From positions 510,309 through 574,308 of the forward strand of contig NZ_JASJEV010000001.1 in NCBI RefSeq assembly GCF_030067675.1: a DNA stretch of 64,000 nt, in the 5' to 3' direction. This DNA is from Chelatococcus albus. Its GTDB lineage: Bacteria > Pseudomonadota > Alphaproteobacteria > Rhizobiales > Beijerinckiaceae. Both the position numbers and the translations under genes were made by a program. Below the pieces are notes generated by a model. It saw nothing but the letters and a program-made list of their open reading frames with translations, did no database searches and was not told the DNA's origin. Shown here one piece after another: positions 28,384 to 34,751 of this stretch (the first letter of the stretch is position 1; each line of letters starts with the position of its first letter).

Positions 28384-29451
28384 ATGAAGGTTCTGGTCAC
28401 CGGCCACCAGGGCTACATCGGCACCGTGATGGTGCCGATGCTCCTCGCCGCGGGGCACGAGGTCACGGGTTGCGACAGCAACCTCTACGAGCGCTGCACC
28501 TACGCCGGCGGCGGCACCATGGCCGAGGTGCCCGCCATCCGCAAGGACGTCCGGGATGTGGCGCCGAGCGACCTCGCCGGGTTCGACGCGGTCATCCATC
28601 TGGCGGCGCTGTCCAACGACCCCCTCGGCGACCTCAATCCCGACATCACCTATGCCATCAACCATCGTGCGAGCGTCCGCCTCGCCGAGCTCGCCAGGAA
28701 GGCCGGCGTGCGACGCTTTCTGCTCGCCTCCTCCTGCAGCAACTACGGCCTCGCGGGCGAGGGGCTGGTCGACGAGACGGCCGCCCTGAACCCCGTGACC
28801 CCCTACGGGCAGTCGAAGGTCTGGGCCGAGCGTGACATCGCGGCCCTCGCCGGCGACGGCTTCTGCCCGACCTATTTTCGCCCGGCGACCGCCTACGGCC
28901 TGTCGCCGCGTCTGCGCTTCGATATAGTGCTGAACAACCTCGTCGCCTGGGCCGTGACCAGAGGACTGATCTACCTGAAGTCGGACGGTACGCCCTGGCG
29001 ACCCATCGTCCATGTCGAGGACATCGCGCGGGCCTTCCTCGCCGGCCTTCACGCGCCGGAGGAGAAGGTCTTCAACGAGGCCTTCAACGTCGGGCAGACG
29101 CGCCACAACTACCGCATCCGCGAGATCGCCGAGGTGGTCGCCGGGGTCGTGCCCGGGTGCCGCCTCGAGATCGCGCCCGAAGCCGGGCCGGACAAGCGTT
29201 CCTATCGCGTGAACTTCGACAAGATCGCCCGCGTGCTCCCGGAGTTCCGGCCGCAATGGGACGTGCGCCGCGGCGCCGAGCAGCTCTATGTCGCCTATCG
29301 CGCCTCGCGCCTCACGCTCGAGGAGTTCGAGGGGCCTCGCTATCAGCGCATCAGCCACATCAAGATGCTCATGAGCGCTGGCATCCTCGACGCGGAGCTG
29401 CGCCATACGGCGCGCGAGACAGCGCGGCCGGTCGCGTCGGCGGCCGAGTGA
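28384..29451 (+). CDS. NAD-dependent nucleotide-sugar epimerase/dehydratase (SDR)
   Basis: 355 residues of extended short-chain dehydrogenase. The Rossmann motif GHQGYIG lies at residues 7-13, the catalytic triad is in SSCSNYG and PYGQSK (Tyr141, Lys145), and a sugar-binding C-terminal part includes [16 protein letters not shown]. It should epimerise or reduce a nucleotide-activated keto sugar. In this setting it most plausibly works on a CDP-sugar made through the cytidylyltransferase at 33290, but substrate and reaction are inferred. AAGGGAG lies upstream of the ATG. Its stop codon overlaps the next start by one base (TGATG), indicating translational coupling with the DUF4910 gene. Confidence 0.87.
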
Positions 29452-30827
29452 TGGGCGCGCATCCGCACGCCAGCGTGCCCCAGACGGGCAGCGCCTCCTT
29501 CGGCGGCCTTCCCGCAGAGCCCGGCATCGGCGAGGAGATCTTCGCCCTCGCCGCGGAAATCTACCCCATCTGTCGCAGCATCACGGGCGACGGCGTGCGC
29601 GAGACCCTCGCGCACCTGGCGCGGCACATCGGCCTGACGGTGCACGAAGTTCCGACCGGAACCAGGGTGTTCGACTGGACCATTCCGCGCGAATGGGTGA
29701 TCCGGGACGCCTATATCAAGAACGCTGCCGGCGAGCGGGTCCTCGACTTCCGCGTCTCGAACCTGCACGTCCTCAACTACAGCGCCCCCGTGTGTGCGCG
29801 CCTGCCGCTTGCGGAATTGAAGCAGCACATCTTCACCCTGCCCGACCAGCCGGATCTCGTTCCCTATCGCACCTCCTACTACGCCGAGCGATGGGGCTTC
29901 TGCATGGCCCATAACCGGCTCGCGGACCTGCCAGACGGGCTCTATGAGATCGTGATCGACGCCGGCTTCAGGGACGGCAGCCTCACCTACGGGGAATATC
30001 TGCATCGGGGCGAGACGGACGAGGAATTCCTTCTCTCGGCGCACATCTGCCACCCTTCGCTCGCCAACGACAACTGCTCGGGCCTGGCGCTCCTCGCGCA
30101 CCTCGCCAAACGTCTCGCCGGCCTTCGCACGCGCTACAGCTATCGCTTCCTGTTCGCCCCCGGCACGATCGGCGCGATCGCCTGGCTCGCGCGCAATGAA
30201 CATCTCGTGCCACGCATCCGGCACGGGCTCGTCGTCTCCTGCGTCGGCGATGCCGGCGGGCCGACCTACAAGAAGAGCCGCCGCGGCGACGCCGCCATCG
30301 ACCGCATCATGACGCACGTCCTGCGCCATGCCTCGCCCGCGCCGAACATCCTCGACTTCTTCCCCTACGGCTATGACGAGCGGCAATATTGCTCGCCCGG
30401 CTTCGACCTGCCCGTGGGCCTCTTCCAGCGCAGCCAGTTCGCAACGTTCCCCGAGTACCACACCTCCGCCGACAATCTCGACTTCATCAGGCCGGAACAC
30501 CTCGCCGCCTCCTATCGGATGCTGGCGACGGCGCTCGACATCGTGGAGAGCGACGCCCTGTTGCGGAACACCATGCCCCGTTGCGAGCCGCAGCTCGGCC
30601 GCCGCGGCCTCTATGCGGCGATCGGTGGCGACAGCGCGGGCCCGCAGGCCAGCATGGCCCTCCTCTGGGTCCTCAATCTCGCCGATGGTCGCCACTCGCT
30701 GCTCGACATCGCCGAGAGGGCAAACCTGCCCTTCCTCATCGTCCGCGAGGCGGCGCAGCGCCTCCAGGAGAAGGGATTGCTCGTGCCCGTCGACGCGTGC
30801 GCCGCGGGCGAGGCGCGGCCTCTCTAG
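29451..30827 (+). CDS. DUF4910 aminopeptidase-like protein
   Basis: 458 residues. The N-terminal signature IYPICRSITGDGVRETL (residues 38-54) is diagnostic for the DUF2172/DUF4910 family. The central part is an M28-like zinc peptidase fold with candidate ligands in SAHICHPSLANDNCSG (His199, His202, Asp208) and FPEYHTSADN (His338). A C-terminal winged-helix-like segment (LLDIAERANLPFLIVREAAQRL) completes the family pattern. The start overlaps the epimerase stop by one base. Proteins of this family recur in surface-polysaccharide loci beside methyltransferases and cytidylyltransferases; a role in removing or exchanging an acyl/amide group on a sugar is possible but unproven. Confidence 0.85.
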   Translation: MGAHPHASVPQTGSASFGGLPAEPGIGEEIFALAAEIYPICRSITGDGVRETLAHLARHIGLTVHEVPTGTRVFDWTIPREWVIRDAYIKNAAGERVLDFRVSNLHVLNYSAPVCARLPLAELKQHIFTLPDQPDLVPYRTSYYAERWGFCMAHNRLADLPDGLYEIVIDAGFRDGSLTYGEYLHRGETDEEFLLSAHICHPSLANDNCSGLALLAHLAKRLAGLRTRYSYRFLFAPGTIGAIAWLARNEHLVPRIRHGLVVSCVGDAGGPTYKKSRRGDAAIDRIMTHVLRHASPAPNILDFFPYGYDERQYCSPGFDLPVGLFQRSQFATFPEYHTSADNLDFIRPEHLAASYRMLATALDIVESDALLRNTMPRCEPQLGRRGLYAAIGGDSAGPQASMALLWVLNLADGRHSLLDIAERANLPFLIVREAAQRLQEKGLLVPVDACAAGEARPL

Positions 30828-30867
30828 GCGACTGCCGCGTGCGTGCACGCCCCGGCCGGCCTCGTCC

Positions 30868-31413
30868 TCACGACGGGGGGGGGGCGCCCGAAAAGTCCGG
30901 CCATGCCCGGTCCTTGTCCGAGATCATGGTGACGGCAAGCGGCCAGTCGATGGCGAAGGCGGGATCGTTGTAGCGGACCCCGCTCGCCGCCTGCGGCGCG
31001 TAGAACGCCGAAATGAGATAGCCCACGTCGCAGTTGTCGCAAAGGCTCTGGAAGCCGTGGGCGAAGCCCTCGGGAATATAGAGCTGGTAGCGATTGTTCG
31101 CGGTGAGCTCGAAGCCCTGCCAGCACCGGAAGGTGGGCGAGGCCGGCCGGAGGTCGACGATCACGTCCCAGATCGCGCCCCTGAGACAGGTCACGACCTT
31201 CGTCTCGCCATGGGGCGCGCGCTGGAAATGCATGCCGCGCAGCGTCCCCTTGGCGTTGGAATGCGACATGCTGTGCTGGACGAAGGTGGTCTGCAGGCCG
31301 TGCACGGCATATTCGCGCACGCAGAAGGTACGTGCGAAGAAGCCCCGTTCGTCCTCGACGGGCGTCGGCTCGATCAGCCATGCACCGGGCAGGCTCGTCT
31401 TCTCGAAGCGCAT
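30868..31413 (-). CDS. dTDP-4-dehydrorhamnose 3,5-epimerase-like protein (RmlC family)
   Basis: 181 residues of cupin fold. Key parts are DERGFFARTF (residues 21-30), the catalytic His62 in GTLRGMHFQ, GAIWDVIVDLRPASPTF, and the active-site segment YIPEGFAHGFQSL. RmlC enzymes epimerise C3 and/or C5 of 4-keto-6-deoxy sugars. Genuine RmlA, RmlB and RmlD are absent from the window, so the substrate is more likely the CDP-4-keto sugar of this cassette than dTDP-rhamnose. The ATG at 31413 has a GGGAG site nine bases upstream. It is the only minus-strand gene of the cassette and converges on the DUF4910 gene. Confidence 0.87.
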   Translation of the reverse strand: MRFEKTSLPGAWLIEPTPVEDERGFFARTFCVREYAVHGLQTTFVQHSMSHSNAKGTLRGMHFQRAPHGETKVVTCLRGAIWDVIVDLRPASPTFRCWQGFELTANNRYQLYIPEGFAHGFQSLCDNCDVGYLISAFYAPQAASGVRYNDPAFAIDWPLAVTMISDKDRAWPDFSGAPPPS

Positions 31414-32000
31414 CGGCCGGCTCCCGCGGGCGTTCTCCGGTCTCTCCGAAGTGAAATACAGGCCTGACATGTTTGACCAGGTTGATTGCCCCATCTGATC
31501 GGCGATCACCCGGGCGGACGATCGTCGTTGCGCGGATCGTCGCGCGGGCACGGGCGGCGTCCCTGTAACGGGTCATTGTCTGGTGCGGCCATGCGCGCCA
31601 ACAACTTCCGCAAAAGGCGTATGCCGAGGCGCACGCCGGCCTTGCGCCTACCACCATGCGGCGGCGGCCGTTCCCGATGCCTCCCCCGAGGGAGGGGTGG
31701 ATCGTGGCGCGATGGCTCTCCTCTAGCCCCAACGGGCGATGGCGGCTCTCCGCTCGAACATCTCTGCAGGACCTTCGATCCAGCTAATCTCGGGAGGCAG
31801 GTCACAGCCGGCTCGGAGCGTCCGCCGTGGTGCGGCTCGCGCCTGCCGGCAGCGCCCCTGGAGCAATGACCGATCGAGGCCGATCGATCATCGCAACCAG
31901 TTCATTCACAGGGGAGCGTCTTCGCCCGCGCGGACCTCCGGTTCGTCGCCGAACCGGCGCCCGCGACGGCGGCAGGCGCTCCAGAGGGGATGCGGCAGGC
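31414..32000. promoter_or_regulatory. Long divergent region inside the sugar cassette
   Basis: 587 bp between the RmlC-like gene and the methyltransferase gene. A 6-bp CCTCCC/GGGAGG hairpin lies near 31681-31697. Frames that cross the region have no ribosome binding site or recognisable pattern. Promoters for both directions are expected here; I cannot place them with confidence. Confidence 0.35.
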
Positions 32001-33293
32001 ATGAACGTTCAAGCGACCGCCGCGTCGCGGGAGGTCGACCTCCCGCCCGCCGGCTTCTGCCGTCTCTGCGGCGCAGGGCTCAGGCACACCTTCGTCGACC
32101 TCGGCATGTCACCGCTGTGCGAGAGCTACCGCACCCCGGACGAGCTCGATGCCATGGAGCCTTACTTTCCGCTGCACGTGCTCGTCTGCGACGACTGCTT
32201 CCTCGTCCAGCTCAAGGAATACGTCAGTCCCGAGCATATCTTCCGGGAGTACGCCTATTTCTCGTCCTATTCGACGAGCTGGGTTGCGCACGCCAAGACC
32301 TATTGCGACATGATCGTGCCGCGGCTCGGGCTCGGCCCCGACAGCCTGGTGGTCGAGCTCGCGAGCAACGACGGCTATCTGCTCCAGCATCTCCTGCCGC
32401 GCGGCATTCCCGTCCTCGGCATCGAGCCCGCGGCCAATGTTGCAAAGGTCGCGGCCGAAAAGGGCATTCCCACCCGCGTCGAATTCTTCGGCGTGGCACT
32501 CGCAAGGCAGCTGGTCGCCGAGGGCCGGCAGGCCGACCTGATCGTCGGCAACAACGTGCTGGCCCAGGTGCCCGACCTCAACGACTTCGTCGCCGGCATG
32601 CGCCTGCTGCTCAAGCCCGAAGGCCTGATCACCCTCGAGTTCCCGCATCTCGAACGGCTGATGGCGGAGAACCAGTTCGACACGATCTATCACGAGCATT
32701 TTTCCTATTTCTCGCTCATCACGATCGAGCGCATGGCGACCCGCCACGGCCTGAAGCTGATCGACGTGGAGGAGTTGCGCACCCATGGGGGCTCCCTGCG
32801 CGTCCACCTCGCCCATGCGGGCAGCGCTTTCGCGCCCGGCCGGCGCGTCTCCGAGCTCATCGCCCGCGAGGAGCGGCACGGCTTCCGAGAGCTCGCGACC
32901 TACGCGACCTTCGCCCCGCGCGTTCAGCGCGCGAAACGCCGGCTGCTTGCCTTCCTCATCGGCGCCAAGGAGGCCGGGCGGACGATCTGCGGCTACGGCG
33001 CGCCCGGGAAGGGCAACACGCTTCTCAACTATTGCGGCATCGGGACCGACTTCCTCGCCTTCACGGTCGACCGCAACCCCTACAAGCACGGCCGCTTCAC
33101 CCCGGGCATGCACATTCCCATCCACCCCGTGGCGGCCATCGACGCGGCCAGGCCCGACTACATCCTGATCCTGCCCTGGAACCTGCGGCAGGAGATCATC
33201 GACCAGATGCGTCACGTCGCCGACTGGGGCGGAAGGTTCGTCGTCCCCATCCCCGAGTTGACCGTCATCGACCCCAGGGAGCTGCGCCCATGA
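32001..33293 (+). CDS. Sugar C-methyltransferase (NovU/TylC3-like)
   Basis: 430 residues in the three-part architecture of C-methyltransferases acting on keto sugars. An N-terminal zinc-binding domain has CRLC (Cys20, Cys23) and CDDC (Cys63, Cys66). The SAM-binding core has VVELASNDGYLLQHL near residue 117 and GIEPAANVAKVA. The C-terminal domain has CGYGAPGKGNTLLNYC and DRNPYKHGRFTPG. Relatives (TylC3, NovU, EvaC) add a methyl to C3 or C5 of a nucleotide-bound 4-keto-6-deoxy sugar. The ATG at 32001 follows GAGGGGA by ten bases. Its stop overlaps the cytidylyltransferase start by four bases, so the two are coupled and a CDP-bound substrate is likely. Confidence 0.88.
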   Translation: MNVQATAASREVDLPPAGFCRLCGAGLRHTFVDLGMSPLCESYRTPDELDAMEPYFPLHVLVCDDCFLVQLKEYVSPEHIFREYAYFSSYSTSWVAHAKTYCDMIVPRLGLGPDSLVVELASNDGYLLQHLLPRGIPVLGIEPAANVAKVAAEKGIPTRVEFFGVALARQLVAEGRQADLIVGNNVLAQVPDLNDFVAGMRLLLKPEGLITLEFPHLERLMAENQFDTIYHEHFSYFSLITIERMATRHGLKLIDVEELRTHGGSLRVHLAHAGSAFAPGRRVSELIAREERHGFRELATYATFAPRVQRAKRRLLAFLIGAKEAGRTICGYGAPGKGNTLLNYCGIGTDFLAFTVDRNPYKHGRFTPGMHIPIHPVAAIDAARPDYILILPWNLRQEIIDQMRHVADWGGRFVVPIPELTVIDPRELRP

Positions 33294-34087
33294 AAGTCGT
33301 GCTTTTCTGCGGGGGCCTGGGCACCCGGATCCGCGAATATTCCGAAAGCATCCCGAAGCCGATGATCCCGATCGGCCATCAGCCCATCCTCTGGCACGTC
33401 ATGCAGTACTACAGCCAGTACGGGCACCGGGACTTCGTCCTGTGCATGGGCTACAAGGCCAACATCATCAAGGACTTCTTCCTGGGCTACCGGCCGCAGG
33501 CCTTCGCCGACTGCGTCGTCTCCAACTACGGCTCGAAGGTCGAGCTCCTGGGCGAGCCACAGGAGGACTGGCGCGTGACCCTCATCGACACGGGCATCTG
33601 GCGCAACATCGGCGAGCGCCTGTGGGCCGTGCGCGACCACGTGCGCGGCGAGCGGATCTTCCTGGCCAACTACAGCGACGGGCTGACCGACGTGAACCTC
33701 GACGACATGGTCGAGCGCTTCGAGAGGAGCGGCAAGCTCGCCTGCTTCCTCGCCATCCGTCCACCCCTCACCTACCACCTTGCCGACATCGACCGCGACG
33801 GCCGGGTGCGCGAGTTCCGCACCTCCGACCGCTCGGAGATCTGGATCAACGGCGGTTATTTCATCATGCGCCCCGCGATCTTCGACTACATGAACGAGGG
33901 CGAGGAGCTGGTCGTGGAGCCCTTCCAGAGGCTCATCGAGGCCGATCAGCTCATGGCCTACAAGCACGAGGGCTTCTGGCGCTCGATGGACACCCTGAGG
34001 GACCGCCAGGTGCTCGAGGACATGGTCGAGCACGGGCAGATGCCTTGGCGGCTGGCCGACGGTGTCGCCATGAAGCACCGTGCCTGA
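33290..34087 (+). CDS. rfbF: Glucose-1-phosphate cytidylyltransferase
   Basis: 265 residues. The start KVVLFCGGLGTRIREYSESI and PKPMIPIG match RfbF/DdhA, in which GGLGTR binds the nucleotide and the Lys of PKPM the phosphate. Further marks are LCMGYKANIIKDFF, INGGYFIMRP, VEPFQRLIEADQLMAY and the C-terminal GFWRSMDTLRDRQVLE. The enzyme makes CDP-glucose from CTP and glucose-1-phosphate, the first step to CDP-linked deoxy and branched sugars. It overlaps the methyltransferase gene by ATGA and precedes the deacetylase gene by ten bases. CDP-glucose 4,6-dehydratase, the expected second enzyme, is not in the window. Confidence 0.93.
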   Translation: MKVVLFCGGLGTRIREYSESIPKPMIPIGHQPILWHVMQYYSQYGHRDFVLCMGYKANIIKDFFLGYRPQAFADCVVSNYGSKVELLGEPQEDWRVTLIDTGIWRNIGERLWAVRDHVRGERIFLANYSDGLTDVNLDDMVERFERSGKLACFLAIRPPLTYHLADIDRDGRVREFRTSDRSEIWINGGYFIMRPAIFDYMNEGEELVVEPFQRLIEADQLMAYKHEGFWRSMDTLRDRQVLEDMVEHGQMPWRLADGVAMKHRA

Positions 34088-34097
34088 GCCCGCGCCC

Positions 34098-34751
34098 ATG
34101 CGCGTCTGGAAGCTGGCCCAGCCGGGAGAAAGACTCTCAGTCCTCTGCCTCGGGGCCCACTCCGACGATATCGAGATCGGTGCCGGGGGCACGCTCCTCG
34201 CCTGGATCGCGGCGGGCGTCGCGCTCGACGTGCACTGGTGCGTGCTCAGCGCCCCGGGCCCGCGCGCTGCGGAGGCCCGGACCTCCGCCGCCGCCTTCCT
34301 CGCCGGCGCCGCGAACGCGCACATCGAGATCGCGGACTTCAAGGATGGCTATTTCCCCTACGAGGGGGGCGGGCTCAAGCTCTGGATCGAGAGCCTGAAG
34401 GCGCGCGTGAGGCCCGACGTCATCCTGACGCACCGGCACGACGACGCCCACCAGGACCACCGCGAGCTGTGCCGCCTGACCTGGAACGCCTTTCGCGACC
34501 ACCTCATCCTCGAATACGAGATCCCCAAGTGGGACGGCGACATGGGCCGACCGAACCTCTACGTGGCGCTGCCCGATGCCGTCGTCAAACGCAAGATCGA
34601 GCTCCTCCTCGCCCATTTCGGCACGCAACGCTCGAAGGACTGGTTCGATCCGGAGACCTTCCGCGGCCTTGCCCGCCTGCGCGGCATGGAGTGCCGTGCC
34701 CCCGAGCGTTATGCCGAGGCGTTCCTGCTGCGCAAGGCTAGGCTCGGCTGA
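34098..34751 (+). CDS. PIG-L (LmbE-like) deacetylase
   Basis: 217 residues with the Rossmann-like PIG-L fold. The metal-site motif appears as LGAHSDDIEIGAGGTL (His21, Asp23, Asp24), and the second part as HRHDDAHQDHRELC (His118, His121). These zinc enzymes remove N-acetyl or other acyl groups from sugars. It follows the cytidylyltransferase gene by ten bases and likely belongs to the same transcript. A GTG at 34080, overlapping the previous gene, would add six residues; neither start has a strong ribosome binding site. The 3' end overlaps the polymerase gene on the other strand by 14 bp. A role in forming an amino sugar, perhaps with the DUF4910 protein, is inferred. Confidence 0.88.
   Translation: MRVWKLAQPGERLSVLCLGAHSDDIEIGAGGTLLAWIAAGVALDVHWCVLSAPGPRAAEARTSAAAFLAGAANAHIEIADFKDGYFPYEGGGLKLWIESLKARVRPDVILTHRHDDAHQDHRELCRLTWNAFRDHLILEYEIPKWDGDMGRPNLYVALPDAVVKRKIELLLAHFGTQRSKDWFDPETFRGLARLRGMECRAPERYAEAFLLRKARLG

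Follow-up and report, generated by a model that had tools for sequence, protein, structure and literature searches.

In Campylobacter jejuni, two parallel heptose pathways are described as starting from different enzymes, one from the C4 oxidase Cj1427 and the other from a C4,C6 dehydratase (PMC7949155). Cj1427 is reported to be a ping-pong C4-dehydrogenase that needs alpha-ketoglutarate, by which its NADH is re-oxidised, and that performs no dehydration (PMC10680097). For CA_C2195, described as a DUF4910 protein without the catalytic residues, a non-peptidase role in sugar synthesis was proposed (Das et al. 2014, PMC4000134). Here we analyse a cassette of six genes in a stretch of 64,000 nucleotides of Chelatococcus albus DNA, referred to as the window. 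These genes encode a short-chain dehydrogenase/reductase (SDR), a DUF4910 protein, an RmlC-like epimerase, a sugar C-methyltransferase (CMT), a glucose-1-phosphate cytidylyltransferase-like protein and a PIG-L family protein. A preliminary description had regarded them as an uncharacterised pathway; the pathway as a whole still looks so, whereas the link of DUF4910 to sugar-modification operons was already published in 2014 (PMC4000134).

Our favoured reading, which we hold to be reasonably likely, is that the six genes form a cytidine diphosphate (CDP)-sugar cassette in which C4 oxidation by the SDR replaces a 4,6-dehydratase and whose product is a C-methyl-branched hexose keeping its 6-hydroxyl. 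From the computed families, motifs, co-inheritance, rfbG replacement and gene fusions, we infer the reactions, the carbon positions and the order of the steps as follows. A hexose-1-phosphate would first be activated with cytidine triphosphate by the cytidylyltransferase. The SDR, standing in for RfbG (CDP-glucose 4,6-dehydratase), would then oxidise a ring carbon, most likely C4 by analogy with Cj1427, to give a keto-sugar nucleotide with its 6-hydroxyl retained. The keto group would allow the CMT to methylate the carbon next to it, which by precedent is C3, and would let the RmlC-like protein invert C5 and/or C3. As the keto sugar would most likely come from an SDR dehydrogenase and not from a 4,6-dehydratase, a 6-deoxy product is not expected, and the pathway would end in a CDP-linked, C-methyl-branched hexose. 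An SDR family matched here only by broad epimerase/dehydratase models would thereby gain a concrete predicted function, that of a CDP-hexose dehydrogenase, and C-methyl sugars keeping the 6-hydroxyl are predicted in the surface polymers of many bacteria, rhizobia included.

SDR and rfbG as alternatives in otherwise identical operons

Two samples were compared. A DUF4910 search of genome contigs provided the best 80 of 523 loci, ranked by nearness to the window DUF4910 protein; with six loci added from related genomes and two duplicates removed, 84 DUF4910 loci were counted. They are what is left of the 91 loci L016-L106 after removal of L022, whose DUF4910 match was 27%, L023, where none was detected, L024-L026, which lie elsewhere in the C. 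albus genome, and L041 and L092, which duplicate L019 and L016. Chosen near the window protein, these loci say nothing on DUF4910 at large, and many end at contig ends or at the 10 kb flank, so that absence from a locus is not absence from the genome; L028 and L048, with no CMT gene in the flank, have the entire CMT-cytidylyltransferase-PIG-L triplet elsewhere in the genome. The second sample was order-wide and comprised 297 genomes.

Five of the 84 loci have the order rfbF-rfbG-CMT-RmlC-DUF4910 and five the order rfbF-SDR-CMT-RmlC-DUF4910. Because an otherwise identical operon carries either gene, the SDR fills the slot of rfbG. Among the DUF4910 loci with a CMT and an RfbF-type gene, 46 have only the SDR, seven only rfbG, seven neither and none both (Fisher 8.9e-6, relatedness ignored). 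At the level of whole genomes, checked for 45 of the 47 behind these loci, rfbG was present in 1/39 of the SDR type as against 6/6 of the rfbG type. The lone SDR-type genome with rfbG is that of Sinorhizobium fredii, where the gene belongs to a second operon, rfbF-rfbG-CMT-RmlC (L127), with a CMT of its own. Order-wide, rfbG scored over its family cut-off in none of 34 SDR-bearing genomes and in eight of nine SDR-less CMT genomes; with the comparison confined to CMT genomes, the counts were 0/22 and 8/9. The 34 were taken from 43 SDR-bearing genomes, the nine omitted having SDR matches of 41-45%. The SDR-less genomes checked were G140, two bearing DUF4910 (G109 and G301) and six chosen for their high CMT identity (G338, G145, G084, G137, G323 and G108). 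Two genomes of one genus, both with the cassette, differ in the same manner: G140 carries rfbG but lacks a close SDR, and G306 carries the SDR but lacks rfbG. On a quick CMT tree with long-branch warnings, the SDR/rfbG state changed at least four times (six on the best tree). As a separate observation, rfbF-rfbG-CMT-RmlC operons with no DUF4910 gene in the stretch were seen at L127:9049-15066 (Sinorhizobium fredii) and L136:5946-9598.

The preliminary description had proposed a CDP-4-keto-6-deoxy, C-methyl branched sugar and looked to a CDP-glucose 4,6-dehydratase elsewhere in the genome, whose absence it would have taken as a refutation. Such an enzyme would make CDP-4-keto-6-deoxy-glucose, which would then be C-methylated and epimerised. 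The CMT, the RmlC-like protein and the cytidylyltransferase are all compatible with this route, which is also the likely reading of the rfbF-rfbG-CMT-RmlC-DUF4910 relatives. However, no protein of the C. albus genome (assembly 99.87% complete) exceeded the TIGR02622 cut-off for CDP-glucose 4,6-dehydratase, the best of six weak SDR matches reaching 97 bits against a cut-off of 278, and the counts given above show the SDR excluding rfbG in other genomes as well. For the window cassette the route is thus very unlikely. Production of a 6-deoxy sugar by the organism is not thereby denied, as those weak matches to the dehydratase model are present. The earlier pathway is right in outline, with one product, C-methyl branching and a polymer as destination, and probably wrong in the step that makes the keto sugar.

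Relatives, motifs and fusions of the SDR

Among proteins of solved structure, the SDR is nearest to Cj1427, both by sequence (120 bits, next PDB entry 76) and by profile (170, next 104). The six best fold matches to its predicted model (mean predicted local distance difference test score 91) are all Cj1427 chains, and the two proteins group with support 100/97 in a tree of 37 rows that includes few other families. A D-x-R-x-Y stretch is common to the cassette SDRs and Cj1427. From sequence and model, the SDR is therefore predicted to be a Cj1427-like dehydrogenase that forms a keto sugar.

The place that the SDR occupies would also suit an isofunctional replacement, that is, a dehydratase with unusual catalytic residues and a product that is still 6-deoxy, and the profile search shows that the superfamily includes dehydratases. 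Against this, the cassette SDRs have SSCSxYG at the position of the rfbG motif TSDKCY, with SSC in 61/61, so that the Asp-Lys pair, which we take to be catalytic in rfbG, is Cys-Ser. The catalytic YxxxK is kept in all 61, and the dehydratase Asp/Glu is absent. As the nearest structure is moreover that of a C4-dehydrogenase that does not dehydrate, we regard a dehydratase as unlikely.

After Cj1427, many of the best PDB matches are 4-epimerases, and the cassette has no other reductase recognised as a fixed member; the SDR might for these reasons be a 4-epimerase or a terminal 4-keto reductase, with the keto sugar supplied by another enzyme. Five loci from genomes picked for an SDR match without a close cassette speak against this. 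The SDR is fused to a following CMT in one open frame adjoining rfbF in L128 (794 amino acids) and L129 (996 amino acids as called, with the SDR from about residue 227). In L130:6464-8767 it is followed, in one fused frame directly after rfbF, by a DegT/DnrJ/EryC1 aminotransferase. L131 has an rfbF-SDR-CMT triplet, and so has L132, where the rfbF-like protein is a weaker match of 32%. C-methyltransferases of the CMT family and DegT aminotransferases both use keto sugars, and the simplest common reading of the fusions is therefore that the SDR makes, and releases, the keto sugar. None of the five genomes has rfbG over the cut-off, the fusion genomes G372, G403 and G107 among them. An epimerase or terminal reductase hence appears improbable. 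The fusion in L130 suggests that a CDP-amino sugar may be made without a dehydratase. Long open frames at the SDR were also seen in eight further genomes of that genus.

Several points weigh against the dehydrogenase reading that we prefer. The SDR is only 27-29% identical to Cj1427, which sits on a long branch of the SDR tree and which acts on a GDP-heptose. The order-wide Fisher P values (6.2e-8 for all SDR-bearing genomes, 1.1e-6 for CMT genomes only) ignore relatedness, and the rfbG check covered nine of 53 SDR-less CMT genomes. Seven of the 14 SDR-less loci with a CMT and an RfbF-type gene are also without rfbG; another extended SDR is present in four of the seven, and none was seen in L094, L103 and L106. 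Genome G301 likewise has neither SDR nor rfbG. There must therefore be a third route, or the genes lie outside the fetched stretches. The window cytidylyltransferase differs from the canonical rfbF found beside the SDR fusions, and its substrate could for that reason differ. Finally, no C4-reductase was recognised among the constant members of the cassette.

C-methyltransferase and RmlC-like protein

The part of the preliminary proposal that concerns C-methyl branching is borne out, whereas the 4-keto-6-deoxy part is not. In a PDB search the best solved match of the CMT was a 3-C-methyltransferase (291 bits). The protein has zinc, S-adenosylmethionine and C-terminal domains, and YHEH, presumably the functional motif of this family, is kept in 65/66 locus proteins and its Glu-His in all 66. 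The RmlC-like protein passes TIGR01221 (179.5 bits, cut-off 155.75), and the His that we assume to be its active-site residue is present in 65/65. It is not the sole copy in the C. albus genome, where another RmlC-like gene lies beside the best weak dehydratase match (L024).

The cassette product was also sought in a reported sugar. According to a paper title cited in PMC5644692, the O-polysaccharide of Phyllobacterium trifolii contains 3-C-methyl-D-rhamnose. A P. trifolii genome (L060) carries the cassette; we assume that it is the strain of that paper, whose culture number is absent from the citing text. In the same species, L124:6580-15464 holds a second, distant CMT near manC-, gmd- and rmd-like genes, named from a reading of the proteins. 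This region is a simpler and likely source of the reported sugar, judging by its gene content, and the inference from 3-C-methyl-D-rhamnose to the cassette product was rejected.

Conservation and co-inheritance of the cassette

For the order-wide sample, the limits of close forms were placed at gaps in the match lists after these had been seen: E < 1e-126 for the cytidylyltransferase (next match 1.8e-66), E < 1e-196 for the CMT (next 2.7e-163) and, at small gaps, E < 1e-167 for DUF4910 (next 1.0e-161) and E < 1e-161 for the SDR (next 4.2e-155); for PIG-L, any match at 1e-30 was taken. Close forms of the cytidylyltransferase (67-100% identity), PIG-L (60-100%), DUF4910 (59-100%) and CMT (68-100%) occur in an identical set of 15/297 genomes. 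Naive odds of two such sets coinciding are 1.5e-25, relatedness ignored. Fourteen of these genomes also have a close SDR (69-100%); the remaining one, G140, carries rfbG instead. In G297 all are present even though SDR-DUF4910 and CMT-cytidylyltransferase-PIG-L are on separate contigs. At a looser limit of 1e-60, DUF4910 was found in 25, the CMT in 75 and the SDR in 43 of the 297 genomes.

The 84 DUF4910 loci contain the CMT in 66 cases, RmlC in 65, the SDR in 61, the window-type cytidylyltransferase and PIG-L in 50 each, canonical rfbF in 15 and rfbG in seven. All six cassette genes lie within the fetched stretch in 40 loci, 31 of the 84 have the exact window order including the minus-strand RmlC-like gene, and many other arrangements of the genes are seen as well. 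Loci labelled Alphaproteobacteria (Rhizobiales and others), Cyanobacteriota, Chloroflexota, Acidobacteriota, Planctomycetota and Nitrospirota combine DUF4910 with most or all of these families. Chance grouping was rejected, given the shared set of 15 genomes for four proteins and the order conserved in 31 loci; both results agree with the preliminary view of one unit serving one product, and the linkage of the families that it had expected in other genomes was found. The cassette is accessory, since HTH_47, a domain of its DUF4910 protein, occurs in 9/149 relatives searched (own genome counted) and in none of three genomes of the same genus.

Two further genes recur near the cassette. A class III aminotransferase resembling glutamate-1-semialdehyde aminomutase lies at L068:7513-8895 and in 38 other DUF4910 loci. 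It was rejected as an essential partner and is optional: despite its presence in 39/84 loci, the C. albus genome has only matches of 26-36%. A gene for a PhyH-like dioxygenase occurs in 14/84 loci (L102:7280-8221 and 13 others).

DUF4910 protein

The DUF4910 protein is homologous to CA_C2195 (PDB 3k9t) over its length (489 bits). The preliminary description took both it and the PIG-L protein to be hydrolase-like, which is doubtful for DUF4910 and plausible for PIG-L. The catalytic Glu of M28 peptidases is Pro in 84/84 DUF4910 proteins, and the adjacent Glu, presumably metal-binding, is Gly in 79/84. H201, D267 and H337 are kept in all 84, and D207 in 82. To judge from these residues, the protein probably serves a metal-dependent step other than ordinary peptidase-type hydrolysis. 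It is found with either source of keto sugar, and the rfbF-rfbG-CMT-RmlC operon L136 belongs to a genome (G338) with no DUF4910 match at 1e-60, so that DUF4910 is unnecessary for C-methylation itself. A separable later or side step is therefore more likely for it than the making of the keto sugar.

Cytidylyltransferase and PIG-L pair

The window cytidylyltransferase scores below the canonical glucose-1-phosphate cytidylyltransferase model (TIGR02623, 237 bits, cut-off 300.25). E178 and K179 (1tzf numbering) are kept in 15/15 canonical and in 0/50 window-type proteins. Except for a truncated row without R15 and K25, the latter keep R15, K25, R111, D131, N188 and D236 of 1tzf, positions which we take to be functional sites. 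PIG-L accompanies the window type in 50/50 loci, as in all 15 cassette genomes, versus 0/15 loci with the canonical type; another, different PIG-L-like protein occurs in five of the 84 loci. As the pairing changed only once on the CMT tree, it is a single old association kept intact and not a repeated pairing. The metal motifs HxDD and HxDH are complete in 50/50 PIG-L proteins, whose sequence profile and fold resemble deacetylases of the N-acetylglucosamine type, with the hydratase GalB matching too. A hydrolase, acting on an amide by family, is plausible.

Tentatively, and with rather little likelihood, the pair might open another entry to the pathway, from N-acetylhexosamine-1-phosphate to a CDP-aminosugar that the SDR would oxidise, the CMT branch and the epimerase invert, while DUF4910 would catalyse a new metal-dependent, non-peptidase reaction on a keto or amino sugar. 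The resulting CDP-linked amino sugars with a C-methyl branch would then constitute a new class.

Gene layout and genomic setting

The six genes are real at window positions 28384-34751, and the family scan gave, in order, Epimerase; DUF4910, DUF2172 and HTH_47; dTDP_sugar_isom; Methyltransf_13/23/14; NTP_transferase; and PIG-L (Table 1). They make up two plus-strand units, SDR-DUF4910 and CMT-cytidylyltransferase-PIG-L, with the minus-strand RmlC-like gene between them. One base is common to the SDR stop and the DUF4910 start, and the CMT and cytidylyltransferase genes overlap by the four bases ATGA. Gene positions and overlaps had been correctly described before, with the strand of the RmlC-like gene unmentioned. 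The core of the RmlC-like gene begins at an inner ATG at about 31413. Because a Met at residue 7 is invariant in the PIG-L alignment, the true start of this gene may be ATG 34098, ten bases past the cytidylyltransferase stop.

Table 1. Genes of the Chelatococcus albus cassette (window coordinates)
Product	Position	Strand	Remarks
SDR resembling the C4-dehydrogenase Cj1427; proposed CDP-hexose dehydrogenase that forms a keto sugar	28384..29451	+	
DUF4910 protein with an M28-like metallopeptidase fold, a DUF2172 insert and HTH_47; active site altered	29451..30827	+	
RmlC-like 3,5-epimerase family protein	30868..31551	-	core 30868-31413; TIGR01221
Sugar C-methyltransferase (CMT), TylC3/TcaB9/NovU kind	32001..33293	+	Methyltransf_13/23/14
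Divergent glucose-1-phosphate cytidylyltransferase-like protein, Glu-Lys of EKP motif lost	33290..34087	+	TIGR02623, below cut-off
PIG-L/LmbE family protein, complete metal motif	34080..34751 (longest reading)	+	

Ten proteins scanned around the six genes include Poly_export, Wzz/GNVR tyrosine-kinase-like, Bac_transf and Polysacc_synt (flippase-like) proteins, a pyruvyl transferase and several glycosyltransferases. These neighbours place the window within a surface-polysaccharide locus, a setting that fits the earlier suggestion of a polymer decoration.

Comparison with known systems

The CMT belongs to the same family as TcaB9 and the D-mycarose 3-C-methyltransferase (287-291 bits in the PDB search, YHEH kept). 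These two enzymes use dTDP-deoxysugars of antibiotics, and the substrate of the cassette enzyme is presumably CDP-linked. CDP-vinelose of Azotobacter is a CDP-linked 3-C-methyl, 6-deoxy sugar and would fit the rfbG form of the operon, not the window form. In one open-licence library we found nothing on vinelose and no description of PIG-L with a glucose-1-phosphate cytidylyltransferase; among the matches listed there, none described the SDR/rfbG swap, the SDR fusions or the PIG-L pairing, and the match for CDP-glucose with a C-methyltransferase was a Sinorhizobium gene table.

The operon of CA_C2195 is alike in having a sugar epimerase/dehydratase, a nucleotidyltransferase and a methylase (PMC4000134). 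The main text of that paper contains none of the terms PIG-L, deacetylase, cytidyl-, RmlC or C-methyl, and CA_C2195 retains the Glu that most cassette DUF4910 proteins have replaced by Gly. The pathways from RfbF and RfbG to CDP-fucofuranose and CDP-6-deoxy-altrofuranose in C. jejuni HS:41 likewise enter through CDP-glucose and employ a 3,5-epimerase on a CDP-4-keto sugar (PMC12369002). They depend on a 4,6-dehydratase together with a C4-reductase and a mutase, and the abstract names no C-methyltransferase, whereas the window cassette is without a dehydratase. A close parallel to the SDR/rfbG swap is offered by the C. jejuni heptose pathways of Cj1427/MlghA and DdahA, in which a C4-dehydrogenase or a 4,6-dehydratase acts first and 3,5-epimerases follow (PMC7949155, PMC10680097). 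Unlike these GDP-heptose pathways, the cassette would act on a CDP-hexose and would add C-methylation.

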